This document shows, piece after piece, positions 10,428 through 19,131 of a stretch of DNA of 33,455 nucleotides. The stretch comes from Clostridiales bacterium (GTDB lineage: Bacteria; Bacillota; Clostridia; Christensenellales; Pumilibacteraceae), in assembly GCA_031286385.1 (NCBI GenBank), contig JAITUJ010000006.1, positions 1 to 33,455 on the forward strand. The letters run 5' to 3'. The position numbers and the translations under genes are program-made. The stretch's first letter is position 1. Each line of letters begins with the position of its first letter. Below the pieces are notes generated by a model. It was not told the origin of the DNA. It searched no databases and was given only the letters and a program-made list of their open reading frames with translations.

Positions 10428-11258
10428 CTATACATGAGCAACATCAGGCTCAATTACATTGGAATCTGATTGTTCTTTGCTTTGATTCTTATATTTTGGC
10501 TTTGAATTTGAAAACCACAAAAATCCAGATTTACGAATAGTCCCAATGTTTATGCTACTTTGTCCTTTAAAGAAAGCTTTTGAATTGAAATCAGTACTAA
10601 AATTAAATTCTTTATCCATTTCTCCGTGGAGTACAGCATGTACAAGAGCATAAAACAGTGTCTCTTCATCATATTCACTTATTTTCAACAGATCCTTTCT
10701 ATCAGACTTGATGTCTTGCAAAAATTTTCTGCAATTTTTGATGTTTAAGTGAGGACTTTGACTTTGCTGTGGTTTTGCAAGTTGTACAATATGTTCTCTT
10801 GTCGTTGCTGCACTGCGTGGTCTGTCCCAAAATGGAGCAATTTCACTTTCAAAGTTCTTCAACAGACTTTTGGCTGTAATGTCTAAAAAAGTATTGTCTG
10901 CAATCAAACTACCACTTTTTTTGTCCCAATACATTCCTATGGCTGCCTCAGTGGGATAATCACCTTCGCCAGCTTCCATCGTGCTGTGGTCTCCACCACG
11001 CCTGCGCATTGCATACCTTTTATCTACTACGCCCTTTTTTGCATAGTCAAATATACTAGCATAGATTCCAAAAGCCAAGAACTCTTTGGTATTGGAAATA
11101 AAAAAGAAATTTTTATCACCATTCTTGGTATTATGGTGTTGTATGATATATCCGTACACACCATTTTTAAACTTTGTCCAGTTTGCATCGACTGGCGGCC
11201 CTTGCAAATGTGAGAAGTCTTTATTAAAAGTTGGAGCAAAAAGTAAATTATATAACAT
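10428..11258 (-). CDS. Unknown partner protein of the GTPase (276 aa)
   Basis: I do not recognise a family. The chosen ATG (11258) overlaps the GTPase stop by 11 nt and has GAAGG about 8 nt upstream; a TTG at 11273 would add five residues. The protein is soluble and mixed alpha/beta in look. Its N-terminal part has GPPVDANW and a run of aromatic and Gly residues (YGYIIQHH, FFFISN). The middle has RRRGGD and the end is charged and Ser/Gln-rich. The tight overlap means translational coupling and probably a physical or functional partnership with the GTPase, for example as regulator or effector. That role is inference from context only. Confidence 0.72.
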   Translation of the reverse strand: MLYNLLFAPTFNKDFSHLQGPPVDANWTKFKNGVYGYIIQHHNTKNGDKNFFFISNTKEFLAFGIYASIFDYAKKGVVDKRYAMRRRGGDHSTMEAGEGDYPTEAAIGMYWDKKSGSLIADNTFLDITAKSLLKNFESEIAPFWDRPRSAATTREHIVQLAKPQQSQSPHLNIKNCRKFLQDIKSDRKDLLKISEYDEETLFYALVHAVLHGEMDKEFNFSTDFNSKAFFKGQSSINIGTIRKSGFLWFSNSKPKYKNQSKEQSDSNVIEPDVAHV

Positions 11259-12012
11259 GAGGCATGCCTTCAAATTCTAGAATGTTTCGTAATACATATG
11301 CAAAAGTTTTACCACAAGACCAGTCATCGGCGTCACCTCTTACATCAGTTGAGTTTACAAAAGCAAAAGGGACTTCACTATTTCTAGCTGAAATAATTTC
11401 TGCGACTTTTGATTTTATAGAATCGTGAACTCTGTCGTGCATGCTAAATACTATGTGAGTGCTTACACCTTTGGATTTTTTTAAATGTGCTATTGCATCC
11501 ACAAGAGTGTTTAATTGATTTGTCATTTGAACCAATTTTTCATCATCTCTCAAAGTTCCTAAAAAGTCAGCACAGCTAAACAAAAGTATAACGCCGCTAG
11601 GGTGAGTTTCTGATTCACCTGACGCATAGCTTTCAAATAGTGAATTGAAAATGTCCAAATTTTGGGTTATGTCTGCACTAGCAGATTCTGATAGAAATGC
11701 TTCCTCTGTCAAACCACCTGGAGTGTCAGTTACAACAAATATAGGCCATTCTGGGTTAGTAGCCCACCCACCTATCAAACCTTTTTTGTGTTGTACGCAA
11801 ATAGCGGTCTTGTTTACCAACCTAGTATTGCCAACAGATTGTCCAGATTTAATCTTCTTTACATTCTGTTTTTGCTGTACGCGGTCATTTGCATCCATAA
11901 TATGCAATCTCTTACCACTTAACGCTTTGTTAATTTGAGCTATTGCAGTCGTCCAGTATGTCGTTTTGCCTGCGTCAAATTTACCAAGTAATAATACTTC
12001 TTTTTCTTCCAT
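11248..12012 (-). CDS. P-loop GTPase of the TRAFAC type, conflict-system-like
   Basis: The 254-residue product starts with a beta strand and a P-loop G-K-F-D-A-G-K-T-T (10-18). It then has VVTDTPGG (93-100) as the G3/Walker B element and a strand VILLFSCADF (141-150). A degenerate G4-like SMHDR lies at 190-194 in place of NKxD, and FVNSTDVRG at 218-226 is a possible G5. This layout fits small TRAFAC GTPases found in paired bacterial modules, some described as conflict systems. I cannot name the subfamily. AAAGGAG lies about 10 nt before the ATG. The operon has a consensus promoter and a strong terminator of its own and is oriented against all surrounding genes, typical of an acquired cassette. 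Confidence 0.8.
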   Translation of the reverse strand: MEEKEVLLLGKFDAGKTTYWTTAIAQINKALSGKRLHIMDANDRVQQKQNVKKIKSGQSVGNTRLVNKTAICVQHKKGLIGGWATNPEWPIFVVTDTPGGLTEEAFLSESASADITQNLDIFNSLFESYASGESETHPSGVILLFSCADFLGTLRDDEKLVQMTNQLNTLVDAIAHLKKSKGVSTHIVFSMHDRVHDSIKSKVAEIISARNSEVPFAFVNSTDVRGDADDWSCGKTFAYVLRNILEFEGMPHVI

Positions 12013-12105
12013 TTTGTTTAATCTCCTTTAATATATACTTTTATATAAGTAAACACAGTTAAGTCAAAGCACTAAATTACTTGACTACAATAAAAGTGTA
12101 TATTT

Positions 12106-12134
12106 ATTATATAACATTTTACAAAGCTTGTCAA
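12106..12134 (-). promoter_or_regulatory. Consensus promoter of the GTPase operon
   Basis: On the minus strand a perfect TTGACA (12129-12134) and a perfect TATAAT (12106-12111) are 17 nt apart. ACTTGAC around the -35 is inverted as GTCAAGT near 12078-12084, a possible operator flanking the promoter. Such a strong promoter usually implies repression or high basal need. Confidence 0.85.
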
Positions 12135-12179
12135 GTGTTTTTTGTAGTTTATTTATATACTATTTACAAATTATTCATA

Positions 12180-12206
12180 AATAACCTAAAAAACAACTAG
12201 GTTATT
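12180..12206. repeat. 9-bp inverted repeat between divergent promoters
   Basis: AATAACCTA (12180-12188) and TAGGTTATT (12198-12206) pair with a 9-nt loop. It lies between the two divergent promoters and could be an operator or a remnant. The remainder of 12135-12325 has no gene. Confidence 0.45.
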
Positions 12207-12325
12207 GCTTTGGTTATTGCATCGTCTTAAAAATTCTGCCAATATATATATACTGTCTATTATAAGTGTTTTTTATGCAACGCTGACATCAATTGCCTAA
12301 AATTTGGTAATACAGCTTAAAGTAT

Positions 12326-12354
12326 TTGACAATAATCAAAAAAAATGTTACAAT
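12326..12354 (+). promoter_or_regulatory. Promoter of the carA-like / carB-dapF / pyrG operon
   Basis: TTGACA (12326-12331), a 17-nt spacer and TACAAT (12349-12354). This leaves a leader of about 205 nt that contains a terminator. Confidence 0.75.
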
Positions 12355-12372
12355 AGAATTGAAGCTTTTTGG

Positions 12373-12490
12373 AGTTTGTGAACATGGAATTATAACAATG
12401 CCTTTTATTGGATTATTCTTATTTTGTCACAGTTAAATTCACATTTTTATAGAACTAACAAACTGACAAAAAGTTGAGTTTGTTTTTTTA
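12373..12490 (+). promoter_or_regulatory. Leader attenuator with mutually exclusive hairpins
   Basis: AACAAACT (12457-12464) and AGTTTGTT (12477-12484) followed by T to 12489 form an intrinsic terminator 77 nt before the gene. An earlier AGTTTGT (12373-12379) is identical to its 3' arm and could pair with ACAAACT (12458-12464), preventing termination. TGTGAA (12377-12382) overlaps that arm and can pair with TTCACA (12438-12443), which would block the antiterminator. A short ORF (ATG 12400, 12 codons) lies in the leader without a clear SD. The sensed ligand or factor is unknown; no PyrR-binding consensus is seen. Confidence 0.55.
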
Positions 12491-12566
12491 TGGTTTTAAT
12501 ATAACAGAGCTTAATCAATTTAGTTTAACTTCAATCAACTAATTCATTAGCTTTGGGGAGGTAAAT

Positions 12567-13604
12567 GTGTATAAGTACAATGCAACTTTAAAGTTATCAG
12601 ATGGTAGCACTTTTAAAGGATTTGGTGCAGGATTTATGCAAAACACTGGTGAAAAAGAAATCGTCTTTCATACCAACAATGTTGGAATTGTTCAAGTTGT
12701 TACAGATCCATGTAATGCGGGACAAATTATCGTGCAGACTTTTCCGATGATTGGTGACATAATCAATGCTCACAGCGAAGTTGAAAGTGATGATTATGTT
12801 GCTAGTGGGTATATACTAAAAACTCTCAATCACTTTACAAAAAATCAATGCAAAGTTGAATTTGATGAATTTTTAAAAAGTAAAGGTATTCCTTGCATTA
12901 CTGGCATAGATACAAGGGCACTGACGAATAAGATTAGAGAGTCAACGGTCAAGATAACTGGCAAAATTATTTTTGATAATCCTACAACATTTGCTTTGGC
13001 AAGAAATCTGATGGGTAAACTTAGTCAGTTTACTATTGGTGAAGGACCCATCAATGTAGCTCTTGTCAATCTTGGTATGAAGAATAGTACTAAAAATATT
13101 TTGTTAAAGTACGCTACCTTAAATGTTTTTAATGCTGACGTTGACTACAATAAAATAATGGCAGTTAAGCCACAAGCTATCGTGATCAGTGAAGGTCCTG
13201 GAACGCCATCAAGCCAAAAACTTGCAATTAATTTGGTAAAAGCAAATTTGGCGACAAAAGTCCCTGTGCCAATGTTGGGGTTGGGACTTGGTGCAAATAT
13301 TCTGGCTTTGGGTCATGGATTTAAAGTTGTCAGACTGCCCGTTGGGCACCATGGAAATCAAGCAATAAGAAAAATTTCTACTGGTAAAATATATCAAGTA
13401 GCAAGCAATAGCAATATGACTGTTTCCCAAAAAAGTATAACTCACGCTGCTAAAATCAGTTATCAAAATATTTGTGACAATTCTATTGTAGGACTAAATT
13501 ACAAGAAATCAAAGAGTATGGGTTTTGATTTCTTTGCCCAAAATCAAGCTGACAGTGACTGTTTAAGTTTTATATGGGATGAATTTTTTGGAGGAATAAA
13601 TTAA
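12567..13604 (+). CDS. carA: Carbamoyl-phosphate synthase small subunit homologue, glutaminase triad lost
   Basis: CarA normally hydrolyses glutamine and passes ammonia to CarB. The 345-residue protein keeps the family architecture: an N-terminal domain with GIDTRALTNKIRE (113-125) and a class I GATase fold with SEGPGTP (208-214). The catalytic residues are gone. Where CarA has G-x-C-x-G-H-Q there is G-L-G-L-G-A-N, so Cys becomes Gly240. The His of QNH is Ser282. In the final HPE motif the residues are Lys-Lys-Ser (313-315). The frame is nevertheless open over its whole length. The start has GGGGAGG about 5-7 nt upstream and uses GTG 12567 by frame. The stop overlaps the next ATG by one base. 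I infer a pseudoenzyme; a glutamine-dependent function is not plausible. Confidence 0.9.
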   Translation: MYKYNATLKLSDGSTFKGFGAGFMQNTGEKEIVFHTNNVGIVQVVTDPCNAGQIIVQTFPMIGDIINAHSEVESDDYVASGYILKTLNHFTKNQCKVEFDEFLKSKGIPCITGIDTRALTNKIRESTVKITGKIIFDNPTTFALARNLMGKLSQFTIGEGPINVALVNLGMKNSTKNILLKYATLNVFNADVDYNKIMAVKPQAIVISEGPGTPSSQKLAINLVKANLATKVPVPMLGLGLGANILALGHGFKVVRLPVGHHGNQAIRKISTGKIYQVASNSNMTVSQKSITHAAKISYQNICDNSIVGLNYKKSKSMGFDFFAQNQADSDCLSFIWDEFFGGIN

Positions 13605-16600
13605 TGCCACTAAATAGACATATAAAGAGAGTTTTAATTTTTGTTGAAGACGAATTTGACTGTTATTTAAAACAGGCGTGTACAGTGTTTAGAGATTGTG
13701 GAATTAAAGTTGTATTGGTAAGTCCAAACCCAAGTTTAACAGCAACAGTGAAGACAATGGCAGAAAAGATTTATTTTGAACCTGTCACTTTGGAAAATAT
13801 TCAACGCATTATTATAAAAGAACAGCCTGACAGTATATTAAATTTGTTTTGGGGAGAAAGGTTGATGTCTATCTGTATGCAGATGTCAGACAGTGGCTTT
13901 TTAAAAGACAATAATATAAAGTTGTTGGGTACTGAACAGTCAAAAAATGAAAAGATAAACGCGCTGTCAAATTTGACAGAGGATTTTAAAGAAGTTGAAT
14001 TTTTATTGTTGCGTGATAAGTTAGGCAATGCTTTGATGGTATCCAGCTCGGAAAAAGTCGTACCCTCACTACAAAAAAGCAATTCAATCGTAGTGTATCC
14101 GTCAATCAGTTTGTCTAAGCAAGTGAGTGATGCTTTAAAACAAAAGTCACTAGATTTGATGCACGACATGGAAATTGTAGGTGTTTGTAGTGTTGAGTTT
14201 GCAATAAATAAAAATAACTTTGAATTTGAGATAAAAAAAATAAGACCCAATTTGACGATGTCAAATATATATGCCGGTAAAGTTTTTGGGTACCCTATAA
14301 TAGAAGTGTCCATAAAATTGTCATTGGGATTTCATCTTGAAGAGATAAAAAATAAAATTACAGGCAATTGTGCGTGTATACAGCCTAATGTTGATTATTT
14401 GGCGCTAAAACTTTTCTCAGAAGAGAACGGAAATATTGTGACGATTGCTCATAGCTTTGAAGCTACTTTAATGAAAGCATTGAGAGGGGTCAACAGCGAT
14501 TTGCATACTCTAAATTTGCCAAAATTACAAAATTTAAGTGATGATGAACTTTTAAATTTATTAGAAGAACAAAGTGACCAAAGTATTTATTTGTGTTTTG
14601 AAGCTTTAAATAGAAATGTTGATGTTGAGATTTTAGCACACAAAACAAAAATTGATAAAGTATTTTTGTGTTGCATGCGCAACATTGTTGACATGCAATC
14701 AGAATTGACTAAAATAGAAGGGGACAAAACTGAAATTTATCAGCGAGCTAAAAAGATGGGGTTCTCTGATGACATCATTGATAAATTTGCTGGTGTCAAT
14801 TTTAGTCATGCTATAAAAAAACTAAATTCAAATTTTGGTTATACTTATCACGAAATTGACTCCTGTGCTGGTGAATATAAATCAAATTCATTGTGTTTTT
14901 ATAGTGAATGGAGCGATGCTTGTAGTAGTGCAATTGCACAAGATAAGTCACAATCAAAAGACAAGATAGTTTTATTGGCACCCAATCAAGTAGTCAACGG
15001 GAAACATGACTATTGTTCAAATTATTGCTTTGAACAAGCTGTCAGAATACTAAAAGATTTAGGTTATCAGATTTGCTCTGTCGGAAATAATTTGTTGTCA
15101 CTATTTACTGAAAGTGATGCTCCACATAAAATGTACACAGAGTCACTGTGCATAGAAGATATAATGGGTGTAATAAACAAAGAAAAACCAACTGGTGTAA
15201 TGATACCATTTGGGGGAGAACACGCAAATACAATAGCCCAAAAATTGTCCAGAAATGGTGTAAAGGTTTTGGGTACTAGTACAGACAGTGTTGATTTAGT
15301 TTGGGACTCTGTTCGTTTTTTTCAAAGTTTGCATTCTTTGGGTATAGATTATACTGATTTAAATGAAAATTACAATGTTGTAAAAGATAAATTTATCAGT
15401 GTAGACGCCATTACAGACGGCAATGAAGTTTTAATACTGGGATTTTTGCAACACAGCAGCTTTTCGGAATATGGTAATAGTCAAAAAATTATGATTTATC
15501 CATCGAGCAGTATAAATGATGAAGTTGCTCAACAAATTTTATCTATTTCAAAAAAAATTGTCAAACATTTAAAGTGTAAAGGATTGTTTCAGCTTTGTGT
15601 CTTAATAAAGGGGCAGGAAGTATTTGTTCAAAATTTAATACTAGGAGCTAGCAACAATATTCCATTTTTGTCAAAAGCATTGGAATTGCCAGTGTTTGAA
15701 TTGGCAATAAAAGCTATGACAGGGAAAAAATGGACAGATGTAAATTTTGGTGTAGAGTATTTGCCTTATATTGCTGACAAAGTGGCTTATTTACAAGAGA
15801 GTCAAGCATTTGGAATAGGCAAAACTGTCCGTGAGGCTGTACTAAAAGCGATGTTAGCAACGGACTGTGATGACGTTTTGCAGAATCACTTTGACACGAA
15901 TAATACTAAACTCATAACATTAAATGACATGCGTAAATCAAAACAAGAGTTAAGGTTTGTAAAAATGCATGGGGTTGGTAATGATTATGTGTTTGTGGAT
16001 TGTCGCAGAAAAGAATTGGATTCGGTGCAAAATTTGGCGGTTGAGTTGTCCAATAGGCACTTTGGCATTGGAAGTGATGGGCTAGTTTTGATATTAAAGT
16101 CAAATTCAGCAGATGCAAAAATGTGTATGTACAACGCAGATGGTTCAGAAGGCTCTATGTGTGGCAATGCTATCCGATGTATTGCAAAGTACTTGTTTGA
16201 TAGTGGCAGTGTTAAAAAAACTACAATGAGTATTGAAACGGCTTCCATGATTTGTCAAGTTAAGTTAATACTGTCAAGAGGAAAAGCCATTGGTGCAAAA
16301 GTGACATTGGAAAGTCCAAAAGTTGTGGAAAAAAGAAAAATAATCATTGAAGATATTGAGAAAGATGTCGTGTTTGTCAATGTAGGCAATGACCATTGTG
16401 TTCATTTTGTTCCTAATTTGAGTGTAATTGAGTTTGGAAAAAGAGCGCCACTTTATCAAAACCATCCGGATTTTATGGATAAACCCAATGTAGAATTTGT
16501 GCAGATAATCAGTAAATCTGAGATTAGTATTAGAGTTTTTGAAAGAGGCAGTGGGGAAACACTAGCTTGTGGGTCTGGTGCCTGTGCGGCTGTTGTAGCA

Positions 16601-16744
16601 GCAGTAAGCCAGGGGATGTGTCAAATGGATTCAGAAATAACGGTCAATCTGTTGGGTGGAGTATTAACGGTTAACTACAATGAGCAAAATATTCTACTCA
16701 CTGGTGAGTGTTGCACTGTATTTAGTGGAATAATGGAAATTTAA
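13604..16744 (+). CDS. dapF: Fusion: degenerate CarB (1-775) plus diaminopimelate epimerase DapF (782-1046)
   Basis: The first 775 residues follow CarB through both halves, for example MGFSDDIIDKFAGV (385-398), the linker IDSCAGEY (418-425) and EKPTGVMIPFGGEHA (527-541). The ATP-grasp ligands are lost. Aligning on SKA/GYP, the E-x-N-P-R motif becomes K-I-R-P-N (212-216) in the first half and N-L-I-L-G (677-681) in the second. The N-terminal glycine-rich loop is missing and the allosteric MGS domain is absent. DapF follows in the same frame: KMHGVGNDYV (787-796), MYNADGSEGSMCGNAIRC with catalytic Cys853, and ERGSGETLACGSGACA with catalytic Cys989. DapF isomerises LL- to meso-diaminopimelate for peptidoglycan and lysine. 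No SD precedes an internal DapF start (ATG 15929 is the best candidate). GGAGG precedes the gene's own ATG. Confidence 0.9.
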   Translation: MPLNRHIKRVLIFVEDEFDCYLKQACTVFRDCGIKVVLVSPNPSLTATVKTMAEKIYFEPVTLENIQRIIIKEQPDSILNLFWGERLMSICMQMSDSGFLKDNNIKLLGTEQSKNEKINALSNLTEDFKEVEFLLLRDKLGNALMVSSSEKVVPSLQKSNSIVVYPSISLSKQVSDALKQKSLDLMHDMEIVGVCSVEFAINKNNFEFEIKKIRPNLTMSNIYAGKVFGYPIIEVSIKLSLGFHLEEIKNKITGNCACIQPNVDYLALKLFSEENGNIVTIAHSFEATLMKALRGVNSDLHTLNLPKLQNLSDDELLNLLEEQSDQSIYLCFEALNRNVDVEILAHKTKIDKVFLCCMRNIVDMQSELTKIEGDKTEIYQRAKKMGFSDDIIDKFAGVNFSHAIKKLNSNFGYTYHEIDSCAGEYKSNSLCFYSEWSDACSSAIAQDKSQSKDKIVLLAPNQVVNGKHDYCSNYCFEQAVRILKDLGYQICSVGNNLLSLFTESDAPHKMYTESLCIEDIMGVINKEKPTGVMIPFGGEHANTIAQKLSRNGVKVLGTSTDSVDLVWDSVRFFQSLHSLGIDYTDLNENYNVVKDKFISVDAITDGNEVLILGFLQHSSFSEYGNSQKIMIYPSSSINDEVAQQILSISKKIVKHLKCKGLFQLCVLIKGQEVFVQNLILGASNNIPFLSKALELPVFELAIKAMTGKKWTDVNFGVEYLPYIADKVAYLQESQAFGIGKTVREAVLKAMLATDCDDVLQNHFDTNNTKLITLNDMRKSKQELRFVKMHGVGNDYVFVDCRRKELDSVQNLAVELSNRHFGIGSDGLVLILKSNSADAKMCMYNADGSEGSMCGNAIRCIAKYLFDSGSVKKTTMSIETASMICQVKLILSRGKAIGAKVTLESPKVVEKRKIIIEDIEKDVVFVNVGNDHCVHFVPNLSVIEFGKRAPLYQNHPDFMDKPNVEFVQIISKSEISIRVFERGSGETLACGSGACAAVVAAVSQGMCQMDSEITVNLLGGVLTVNYNEQNILLTGECCTVFSGIMEI

Positions 16745-16803: not shown

Positions 16804-18405
16804 ATGAGCAAACATATTTTTATTACCGGTGGTGTAGCTTCGGGTATTGGCAAAGGGATAACCTCTGCTTCATTGGGTAGATTATTGAAATCACGCAATT
16901 TAAAAGTAGTTGCACAAAAGTTGGATCCATATCTAAATGCCGATCCAGGTTTGCTTAACCCTTTGGAGCATGGAGAGGTGTTCGTATTAGATGATGGTAC
17001 AGAGGCTGATTTGGACTTGGGGCACTATGAAAGGTTTATAGATGAAAACTTGACCAGTTTTAGTACAACTACAAGTGGTAAAGTTTACTGTGATATGTTG
17101 ATAGCAGAAAAGACTGGAAAGTTTAATGGAATCACAATACAAGTTATACCACATGTAACAGATGAAACTAAGAAAATAGTTTATGACTGCGCTAAAAAAA
17201 GTAAAGCCGATGTTGTTATTACAGAGATAGGTGGTACAGTAGGTGATCTGGAAAGCCAAGCTTTTATAGAAGCAGCAAGGCAGATAAGTATTGAAAAACC
17301 AAATGATTGCCTATTTATACATGTTTCTCTTGTGCCATTTTTAAAGTTAAGTAGCGAGTATAAGACAAAACCCACACAGCACAGTGTTAAGATGTTACAG
17401 TCTATGGGAATTAGACCAGATATAATAGTGACTAGAAGTGATGAAAAAATGGATCAAGTTTCATTGGATAAAATCTCAAAGTTCTGTTATGTTCAAAAAG
17501 ACTGTGTAGTGCAAAACTACAATGTAAATCACCTGTATGAAATACCATTAATACTGCATAATGGAGGACTAGATTCCGTTGTAGTTAGACAATTAAAGTT
17601 GAAATGTTCAGCACCAAACTTGACTGAATGGCAAAGGGTCGTGGACAGTATTAAGACACTTGATGGAGCCGTTAATGTTGCATTAGTTGGTAAATATGTA
17701 GCCCTGCAAGATTCTTACTTGTCCGAAGTCGAAGCACTGTCCCATGCAGGGTTTGCTTGTGGTAAAAAAATACGCATTAAATGGGTGGATAGCAACACTC
17801 TAAATGAGGAAAATGCCAGTGTGCTATTGGGTGATTGTGCAGGTGTTTTGGTTCCTGGTGCATTTGGAAGTAGAGGTATAGACGGTTTGATTGTGGCTTG
17901 TAAGTATGCAAGAGAGCATAATATACCATATTTAGGATTGAGCATGGGTATGCAAGTAGCCTGTATAGAGTTTGCTAAAAATGTTTGTGGTCTAAAAAAT
18001 GCTACGAGTACTGAGTTTGAAAAAGACACAAAAGTACCCGTTGTGCACTTGATGAGTAATTTAAATGTGCGTACCAAAGATGGTTCAATGCGTATTGGAG
18101 CGTATGACTGCACATTGTTAAAAGACAGTAAAATTTCTAAACTCTATCAAAGTCTAGATATTAGTGAAAGGCATCGCAATCGCTATGAGATAAATTTTGA
18201 CTTTATAAAAACTCTAACAGACAGTGGATTGACGATTAGTGGCAGAAGTGTAATAGGCAGTTTTGTAGAAAGCATAGAAAATCCAGCTTGTGATTTTTTT
18301 ATTGCAGTACAGTACCATCCACAGTTCAAATCTCGTCCGAATAGAGCGCATCCGTTATTTAAAGGTTTTGTAGAAGCTATGATGGGGAAACCATTCAACA
18401 ACTAA
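16804..18405 (+). CDS. pyrG: CTP synthase with inactivated glutaminase domain
   Basis: PyrG aminates UTP to CTP. The 533-residue protein has an intact synthase domain: GGVASGIGKGI (9-19), DPYLNADPG (41-49), DDGTEADLDLGHYERF (63-78) and TEIGGTVGDLES (140-151). In the C-terminal GATase domain the nucleophile motif is G-L-S-M-G-M-Q, so Cys is Ser380. The last motif reads YHPQ (504-507), keeping His505 but with Gln507 in place of Glu. The oxyanion loop has PGAFG in place of PGGFG. In E. coli, mutation of this Cys abolishes glutamine use but leaves ammonia-dependent activity. I infer an ammonia-only enzyme. It lies 59 nt after the CarB-DapF gene with SD GAGGG, so it is probably in the same operon. 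Confidence 0.95.
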   Translation: MSKHIFITGGVASGIGKGITSASLGRLLKSRNLKVVAQKLDPYLNADPGLLNPLEHGEVFVLDDGTEADLDLGHYERFIDENLTSFSTTTSGKVYCDMLIAEKTGKFNGITIQVIPHVTDETKKIVYDCAKKSKADVVITEIGGTVGDLESQAFIEAARQISIEKPNDCLFIHVSLVPFLKLSSEYKTKPTQHSVKMLQSMGIRPDIIVTRSDEKMDQVSLDKISKFCYVQKDCVVQNYNVNHLYEIPLILHNGGLDSVVVRQLKLKCSAPNLTEWQRVVDSIKTLDGAVNVALVGKYVALQDSYLSEVEALSHAGFACGKKIRIKWVDSNTLNEENASVLLGDCAGVLVPGAFGSRGIDGLIVACKYAREHNIPYLGLSMGMQVACIEFAKNVCGLKNATSTEFEKDTKVPVVHLMSNLNVRTKDGSMRIGAYDCTLLKDSKISKLYQSLDISERHRNRYEINFDFIKTLTDSGLTISGRSVIGSFVESIENPACDFFIAVQYHPQFKSRPNRAHPLFKGFVEAMMGKPFNN

Positions 18406-18549: not shown

Positions 18550-19131
18550 ATGTCACAAAATGTTCAAAATACAAGCTTGGTAAGAGGGGAGCGAACACTA
18601 CAAAAATTGTCAATGCAACAAATTGTTCAAGCTTTTGACAGTGTAATACAGAAAGCAAAAAATCAATCGGTTGCTTTACCAAAAAATAATAGTGCAAAAT
18701 CAAAGTTGTACTTTGCTGCTCCTTGGTTTAACGAGTTAGAAGAGCTTATATACAAAAAATGTCAGTGTATATTTGACGCTGTGAGCTTAAAGTCAAAGTA
18801 TGAAGTGTTTTGGCCAAAGGATAATGTGTACGATACTCCAAATGAAGCTTTTTTAGCAGATGTCAGAGAAATAAAAAGTGCTGAAATTATTTTGGCACTA
18901 GTGACCACACTAGATGTCGGTACCGCTTGGGAAATAGGTTATGCGTATGCTCTGAACAAAAAAATTGTATTGTTAGGCTTTGATGAAAGTTGTTTGATGT
19001 CACACATCAACATTATGTTGGGGTTTTCTGCTGATTTCATTACAATTGAAAGTTTGCAAAAGTTATTAGTGGGTACAATAGAACAAAAAGATTTCATCAA
19101 AATAGACAACACTTGGCAAGGTAAGCAATAG
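18550..19131 (+). CDS. Nucleoside 2-deoxyribosyltransferase-like protein
   Basis: The 193-residue product has an N-terminal extension of about 50 residues and then a domain that fits the nucleoside 2-deoxyribosyltransferase family: KLYFAAPWF (52-60) as the first strand and loop, an Asp in FLADVREIKSAEI, and DVGTAWEIGYAYAL, whose Glu is the expected nucleophile, followed by KKIVLLGF. These enzymes move deoxyribose between bases in nucleoside salvage; related proteins hydrolyse modified or damaged nucleotides. SD is TAGGAGAT. It follows pyrG and fits a salvage context. The following 95-aa gene begins 2 nt after its stop. Specificity for purine or pyrimidine cannot be read from the sequence. Confidence 0.8.
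   Translation: MSQNVQNTSLVRGERTLQKLSMQQIVQAFDSVIQKAKNQSVALPKNNSAKSKLYFAAPWFNELEELIYKKCQCIFDAVSLKSKYEVFWPKDNVYDTPNEAFLADVREIKSAEIILALVTTLDVGTAWEIGYAYALNKKIVLLGFDESCLMSHINIMLGFSADFITIESLQKLLVGTIEQKDFIKIDNTWQGKQ

Follow-up and report, generated by a model that had tools for sequence, protein, structure and literature searches.

Why should a gene for a CarA-like protein stay open and full length when the residues for glutamine hydrolysis have gone? This is the question raised by a locus in the window, by which we mean the whole stretch of 33,455 nucleotides analyzed here. An earlier note, made from the letters only, had proposed that such an intact frame with a dead active site was under selection for something other than glutamine hydrolysis. 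That picture was incomplete, having missed an apparently dead CarB, the fusion of this CarB to DapF and the absence of pyrimidine genes. With these three facts in hand, the question becomes why the remnants of a whole dead synthetase persist.

The carA-like gene and its missing catalytic triad

The features found in and before the gene are the following.

12326..12354, + strand: candidate sigma-70-like promoter, TTGACA-17-TACAAT with extended TG, 5' of carA (consensus scan)
12555..12561, + strand: Shine-Dalgarno GGGGAGG of the carA-like ORF (direct reading)
12567..13604, + strand: carA-like ORF of 345 aa, predicted to be glutaminase-dead (profile searches, alignment)
13284..13286, + strand: codon of Gly240, at the nucleophile position (E. 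coli C269; alignment)
13533..13541, + strand: codons of Phe323-Ala324-Gln325, replacing H353-P354-E355 of E. coli (alignment)

The ORF starts with GTG and is full length, as had been claimed, with no internal stop; the probability that 345 random codons of the same composition lack a stop is 5e-13. Both Pfam domains expected of a CarA were detected above their cut-offs (CPSase_sm_chain at residues 8-128 with 100 bits, and GATase at residues 180-320 with 49 bits), and the protein scored below both NCBIfam equivalog cut-offs for CarA (212 versus 221 bits, and 190.3 versus 307.35 bits, the latter for TIGR01368). The promoter candidate matches the consensus at 11 of 12 positions in a region where promoter-like sites are about as frequent as in shuffled sequence, and its assignment to carA is suggestive only.

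The catalytic positions were read from an alignment in which the window protein was set against CarA of E. coli K-12 and some 40 relatives. The Cys-His-Glu triad is absent (C269 is replaced by Gly240, H353 by Phe323 and E355 by Gln325), GAN stands where other CarAs have GHQ, and the interdomain linker of about 30 residues is missing. The earlier note was therefore right about the loss of all three residues, about Gly240 and about GAN, and wrong in two of its three assignments, since Ser282 aligns with H312, a non-triad active-site His, and Ser315 with K345. Two escapes that it had named were also followed: no other Cys/His/Glu set was found in register in the alignment, and no second carA was found in the genome from which the window comes (assembly 87% complete).

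An AlphaFold model computed from four sequences gave pLDDT values of about 80-94 over much of the amidotransferase domain, with low confidence for the N-terminal domain, and the best structural match of the modelled amidotransferase domain was E. coli CarA (1jdb_F, Z 24.7, rmsd 2.5 over 186 residues). The protein resembles CarA/PyrAA (E. coli 1JDB, 1C30) in its two-domain architecture, its place before carB and its predicted class I amidotransferase fold, and differs from it in the lack of triad, GHQ and linker and in its sub-equivalog scores.

A degenerate CarB fused to DapF

Directly downstream lies a single ORF of 1046 codons (13604-16744, + strand), whose ATG shares one base with the stop codon of carA (TAATG). 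Its parts and the gene that follows are listed here.

13590..13594, + strand: Shine-Dalgarno GGAGG of the carB-dapF ORF, within the end of carA (direct reading)
13604..15937, + strand: degenerate CarB moiety, residues 1-778 (profile searches, alignment)
13946..13981, + strand: junction of the ATP-grasp 1 deletion, residues 115-126, found in the congener too (alignment)
15953..16744, + strand: DapF moiety, residues 784-1046 (TIGR00652, 226.6 bits versus a cut-off of 114.65)
16804..18405, + strand: CTP synthase (pyrG), intact and outside the fusion (profile searches)

Compared with E. coli CarB, the window CarB has lost most of the allosteric domain as well as residues 123-211, which takes about 85 residues out of ATP-grasp 1. 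At 23 positions that we take, from general knowledge of E. coli CarB, to be ATP-site residues, one is retained (E215) and the other 22 are substituted or deleted. The same positions are essentially all conserved in 30 other CarBs examined, and they are lost in both members of the genus. By these positions the window protein falls outside the definition of CarB (TIGR01369) by two ATP-grasp sites with conserved Arg, Glu, Gln and Asn residues. Judged by these residues, the window CarB is catalytically dead.

The C-terminal 263 residues are a different matter. They form a full-length DapF domain above the TIGR00652 cut-off, with both catalytic Cys motifs (MCGN and ACGSGA), and differ from the classical DapF, diaminopimelate epimerase, in being fused behind a CarB. 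This is the sole DapF found in the window genome, as is its counterpart in the congener, and it is apparently live within the fusion. A model of the whole CarB-DapF ORF, again from four sequences, had a mean pLDDT of 55 and was unreliable.

Concerning the surroundings, a gene resembling nucleoside 2-deoxyribosyltransferases follows pyrG (18550-19131, + strand), consistent with nucleoside salvage, and two overlapping genes precede carA on the opposite strand (10428-12012), without significant Pfam match, one of them with a P-loop-like start. The latter pair is 57% and 83% identical to its counterparts in the congener, far above the adjacent CarA. The Rfam scan gave tRNA as its sole match.

Age of the fusion and of the decay

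A CarB-DapF ORF of about 1350 aa with intact CarB sites is present in many genera of the family, while the two are separate genes in other genera; on this distribution, the fusion predates the decay of CarB. Within the genus of the window two genomes were compared, that of the window and one congener (assemblies 87% and 90% complete). The congener, assembled independently, agrees with the window in gene order, fusion and losses: its CarA (334 aa) likewise has Gly at the nucleophile position, and its CarB part, reduced to about 385 aa, shows the ATP-grasp 1 deletion seen in the window. In both species carB-dapF has its own Shine-Dalgarno. Because the deletion coincides, parallel loss is less likely, and we infer that the synthetase had already died when the two congeners separated.

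At some other loci further states were seen. In one genome (locus L151, G020:C1) the carA ORF is cut to 155 aa before a CarB-DapF fusion with intact ATP sites, and another carAB, not fused, is present in that genome (L152). Another (L148, G004:C1) has a CarA with the catalytic Cys and Gln in place of the triad His, before an intact CarB-DapF fusion. Separate dapF genes were found at L164 (G013:C16) and L165 (G016:C2); G013 has its one besides a CarB-DapF fusion, the DapF part of which, perhaps in decay, stands on a long branch (1.88).

Pyrimidine genes

The search for pyrD was positive in 17 of 18 genera across the family and negative in both congeners, and pyrF, present in 9 of 10 other genomes tested, is likewise absent from both; given the incompleteness of the two assemblies (87% and 90%) these absences are strong hints, not proof. 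The genes dapA and upp are present in both genomes. One OTCase was found in the window genome and none in the congener. This OTCase is probably catabolic, making carbamoyl phosphate rather than consuming it, because it lies within an arcBCDA-like operon (L050, G000:C24, 5646-10678) that, read from its ORFs, encodes OTCase, carbamate kinase, an antiporter-like permease and arginine deiminase. On the same contig, an ORF at 11016-12479 has a start resembling the N-terminal part of Cas9 and runs off the contig end.

Is the dead CarA retained under selection?

Synonymous positions are saturated between the congeners, with four-fold sites 24-27% identical in carA and dapF versus 30-35% expected. Despite this, the two CarAs are 36% identical over 317 residues (blastp E 5e-69), and therefore CarA was kept. 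The dN/dS comparison proposed in the earlier note was carried out against this one congener with a pairwise codon model and, at saturated synonymous sites, gave an omega of 0.06 (2dlnL versus omega = 1 of 120). The essentially unalignable middle of CarB gave the same omega of 0.06, a sign of alignment bias, and codon-shuffled, realigned controls were therefore added. For CarA the controls had a mean 2dlnL of 27 and a maximum of 55, well below the observed value. For CarB residues 1-262 the corresponding figures were 49 versus a shuffled mean of 19 and maximum of 44, so that purifying selection on this part of CarB is weakly supported.

In order to have a reference, we considered pairs of family members with a working synthetase at equal DapF identity (55-60%), whose CarAs are 57% identical (range 49-66). 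The CarA of the window's genus thus evolves faster than a working CarA, yet not freely. Among the residues identical in both congeners 61 are derived and 50 ancestral, the derived features including two new Cys (C49 and C110) and the segment SQ[KR]LAINL[VI]KANL. Of the 71 nearly invariant columns of CarA, 38 are retained in the window and 27 in the congener.

The two lineages differ in the CarA tree as well. The end branches were 0.77 for the window and 3.43 for the congener, on a stem so long (about 2.9 changes per column) that nearby branch lengths are uncertain; in the DapF tree they were 0.65 and 0.63. As read off the two trees, the CarA/DapF branch ratio of the window is about 1.2, versus about 0.8 to 1.6 in working relatives. 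Relative to DapF, the window CarA would be held about as tightly as working CarAs and that of the congener loosely, its branch making strong relaxation visible in one lineage. The proposal of selection for a role other than glutaminase activity fits the comparison of the pair, in which constraint is uneven. Looseness of CarA coincides with a small CarB partner, a single contrast with uncertain branch lengths, which fits a structural partnership of CarA with CarB.

Glutaminase-dead CarAs in other Clostridia

We searched genomes of the order and the class with a degenerate pattern, Gly or Ser (or Arg) at the nucleophile before xGHQ. It matched in 24 of 396 order genomes and 44 of 391 class genomes, and a reversed control pattern in none. 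From these matches 54 loci were fetched, the remaining class matches lying outside this sample; in 27 of the loci the CarA has Gly or Ser in the place of C269, and carB comes next in nearly all of these; the other 27 contained no CarA by the filter used. In a tree of 71 CarAs, 24 of them dead, the dead state requires 15 changes (bootstrap 14-16), at least 8 of which are forced by well-supported branches. In one genus (g80, Cys to Ser in seven species) omega was 0.05-0.11 at dS of about 0.4-1.5, which is a clear signature of purifying selection; both g80 genomes examined carry an intact CarA besides the Cys to Ser copy. Apart from these, at L177 and L241 (G083:C58) a CarA with Ser at the nucleophile is broken into one frame of 317 aa and another of 104 aa, followed by an intact start of carB; the break is either a real frameshift or an assembly error.

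Most of these loci end after ATP site 1 of CarB, so this site alone was read; the adjacent CarBs have its residues intact, two positions in G042 falling outside the reading. In a member of the window's own family (G010) both ATP sites are intact beside a dead CarA. Since 15 of 23 genomes checked yielded no CarA besides the dead one (the other eight having a second copy with the full triad), these Cys to Gly/Ser proteins beside an apparently intact CarB point, by extrapolation, to natural ammonia-only synthetases. Human CPS1 has Ser instead of the catalytic Cys (PMC4655335). Like the window locus, vertebrate CPS I retains an inactive glutaminase-like domain; its ATP sites still work and it produces carbamoyl phosphate, whereas the window CarB is without those sites, and the analogy suits the related Clostridia instead. 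A literature search that covered few subscription journals found no report of a natural glutaminase-dead bacterial CarA, nor of a CarB-DapF fusion.

Why the remnants persist

The window CarA is the catalytically inactive vestige of a synthetase that has died and is tied, through its CarB, to an apparently live DapF. The reading that we favor, tentatively and at somewhat less than even chances, gives it a structural role for which it would have been kept, as non-catalytic partner of the CarB-DapF fusion. The locus would be the fossil of a glutamine-dependent carbamoyl-phosphate synthetase whose CarB had become fused to the sole DapF in some ancestor inside the family. Once the genus lost de novo pyrimidine synthesis, the carbamoyl phosphate of CarAB would have been unneeded, and catalysis could then have been lost through the CarA triad, both CarB ATP sites and the deletion through ATP-grasp 1. 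The fusion frame could not have gone, because DapF was required for meso-DAP. CarA would persist because it is still the docking partner of the remaining CarB, keeping it folded or soluble, and would now be a structural subunit of a DapF complex. Continued binding of CarA to CarB, this binding as the cause of its retention, and an active DapF within the fusion are all inferred.

The main rival is passive retention, which we consider unlikely though far from negligible. CarB would be dragged along as an N-terminal extension of DapF, stops or frameshifts in it removing DapF, and CarA would linger by its operon position through transcript, polarity or translational coupling, with neither protein selected. 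The in-frame shrinking of CarB (from about 1070 to 778 and 385 residues), its middle without detectable similarity between congeners, and the very long end branch of the congener CarA with its fewer nearly invariant columns all agree with this. However, with a Shine-Dalgarno of its own before carB-dapF in both species the CarA protein sequence need not be preserved, which also speaks against translational coupling as the reason for keeping it, and yet CarA similarity and omega go beyond the alignment-bias controls. Drift past saturation would not have retained so many shared derived residues.

Those derived residues, with C49, C110 and the conserved segment, together with the well-predicted amidotransferase fold, could be taken instead to mean that remodelling has given CarA a new regulatory or sensory task, for instance towards DapF or nitrogen status, with the emptied glutaminase pocket as ligand site. 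We regard this as improbable, since no conserved candidate ligand site was identified and the congener CarA evolves fast. A CPS I-like synthetase using free ammonia, as suggested for other Clostridia including G010, may have been an ancestral step, but it is very improbable in the window itself, where CarB has neither ATP site and neither pyrD nor pyrF was found. An assembly or binning artefact or recent pseudogene is scarcely credible: the source assembly is fragmented (94 contigs), but an independent assembly shares the arrangement and no stop interrupts the 345 and 1046 codons of the two frames.

Implications

The locus suggests how gene fusion can shelter a useless enzyme from loss, and it offers a natural experiment on roles of CarA apart from glutamine hydrolysis. 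A broader scenario, which we put forward as doubtful, is that Clostridia repeatedly evolved ammonia-only synthetases with an inactivated CarA as obligate structural subunit, a bacterial parallel to CPS I, and that in one genus the whole synthetase then died and its pseudo-subunits were co-opted as scaffolding for a complex with DapF. With their recurrent change, the Cys to Gly/Ser CarAs offer direct evidence, at the level of sequence, that bacteria may have a counterpart of vertebrate CPS I; if this is confirmed, annotation pipelines would overstate the glutamine-dependent synthetases of gut Clostridia.
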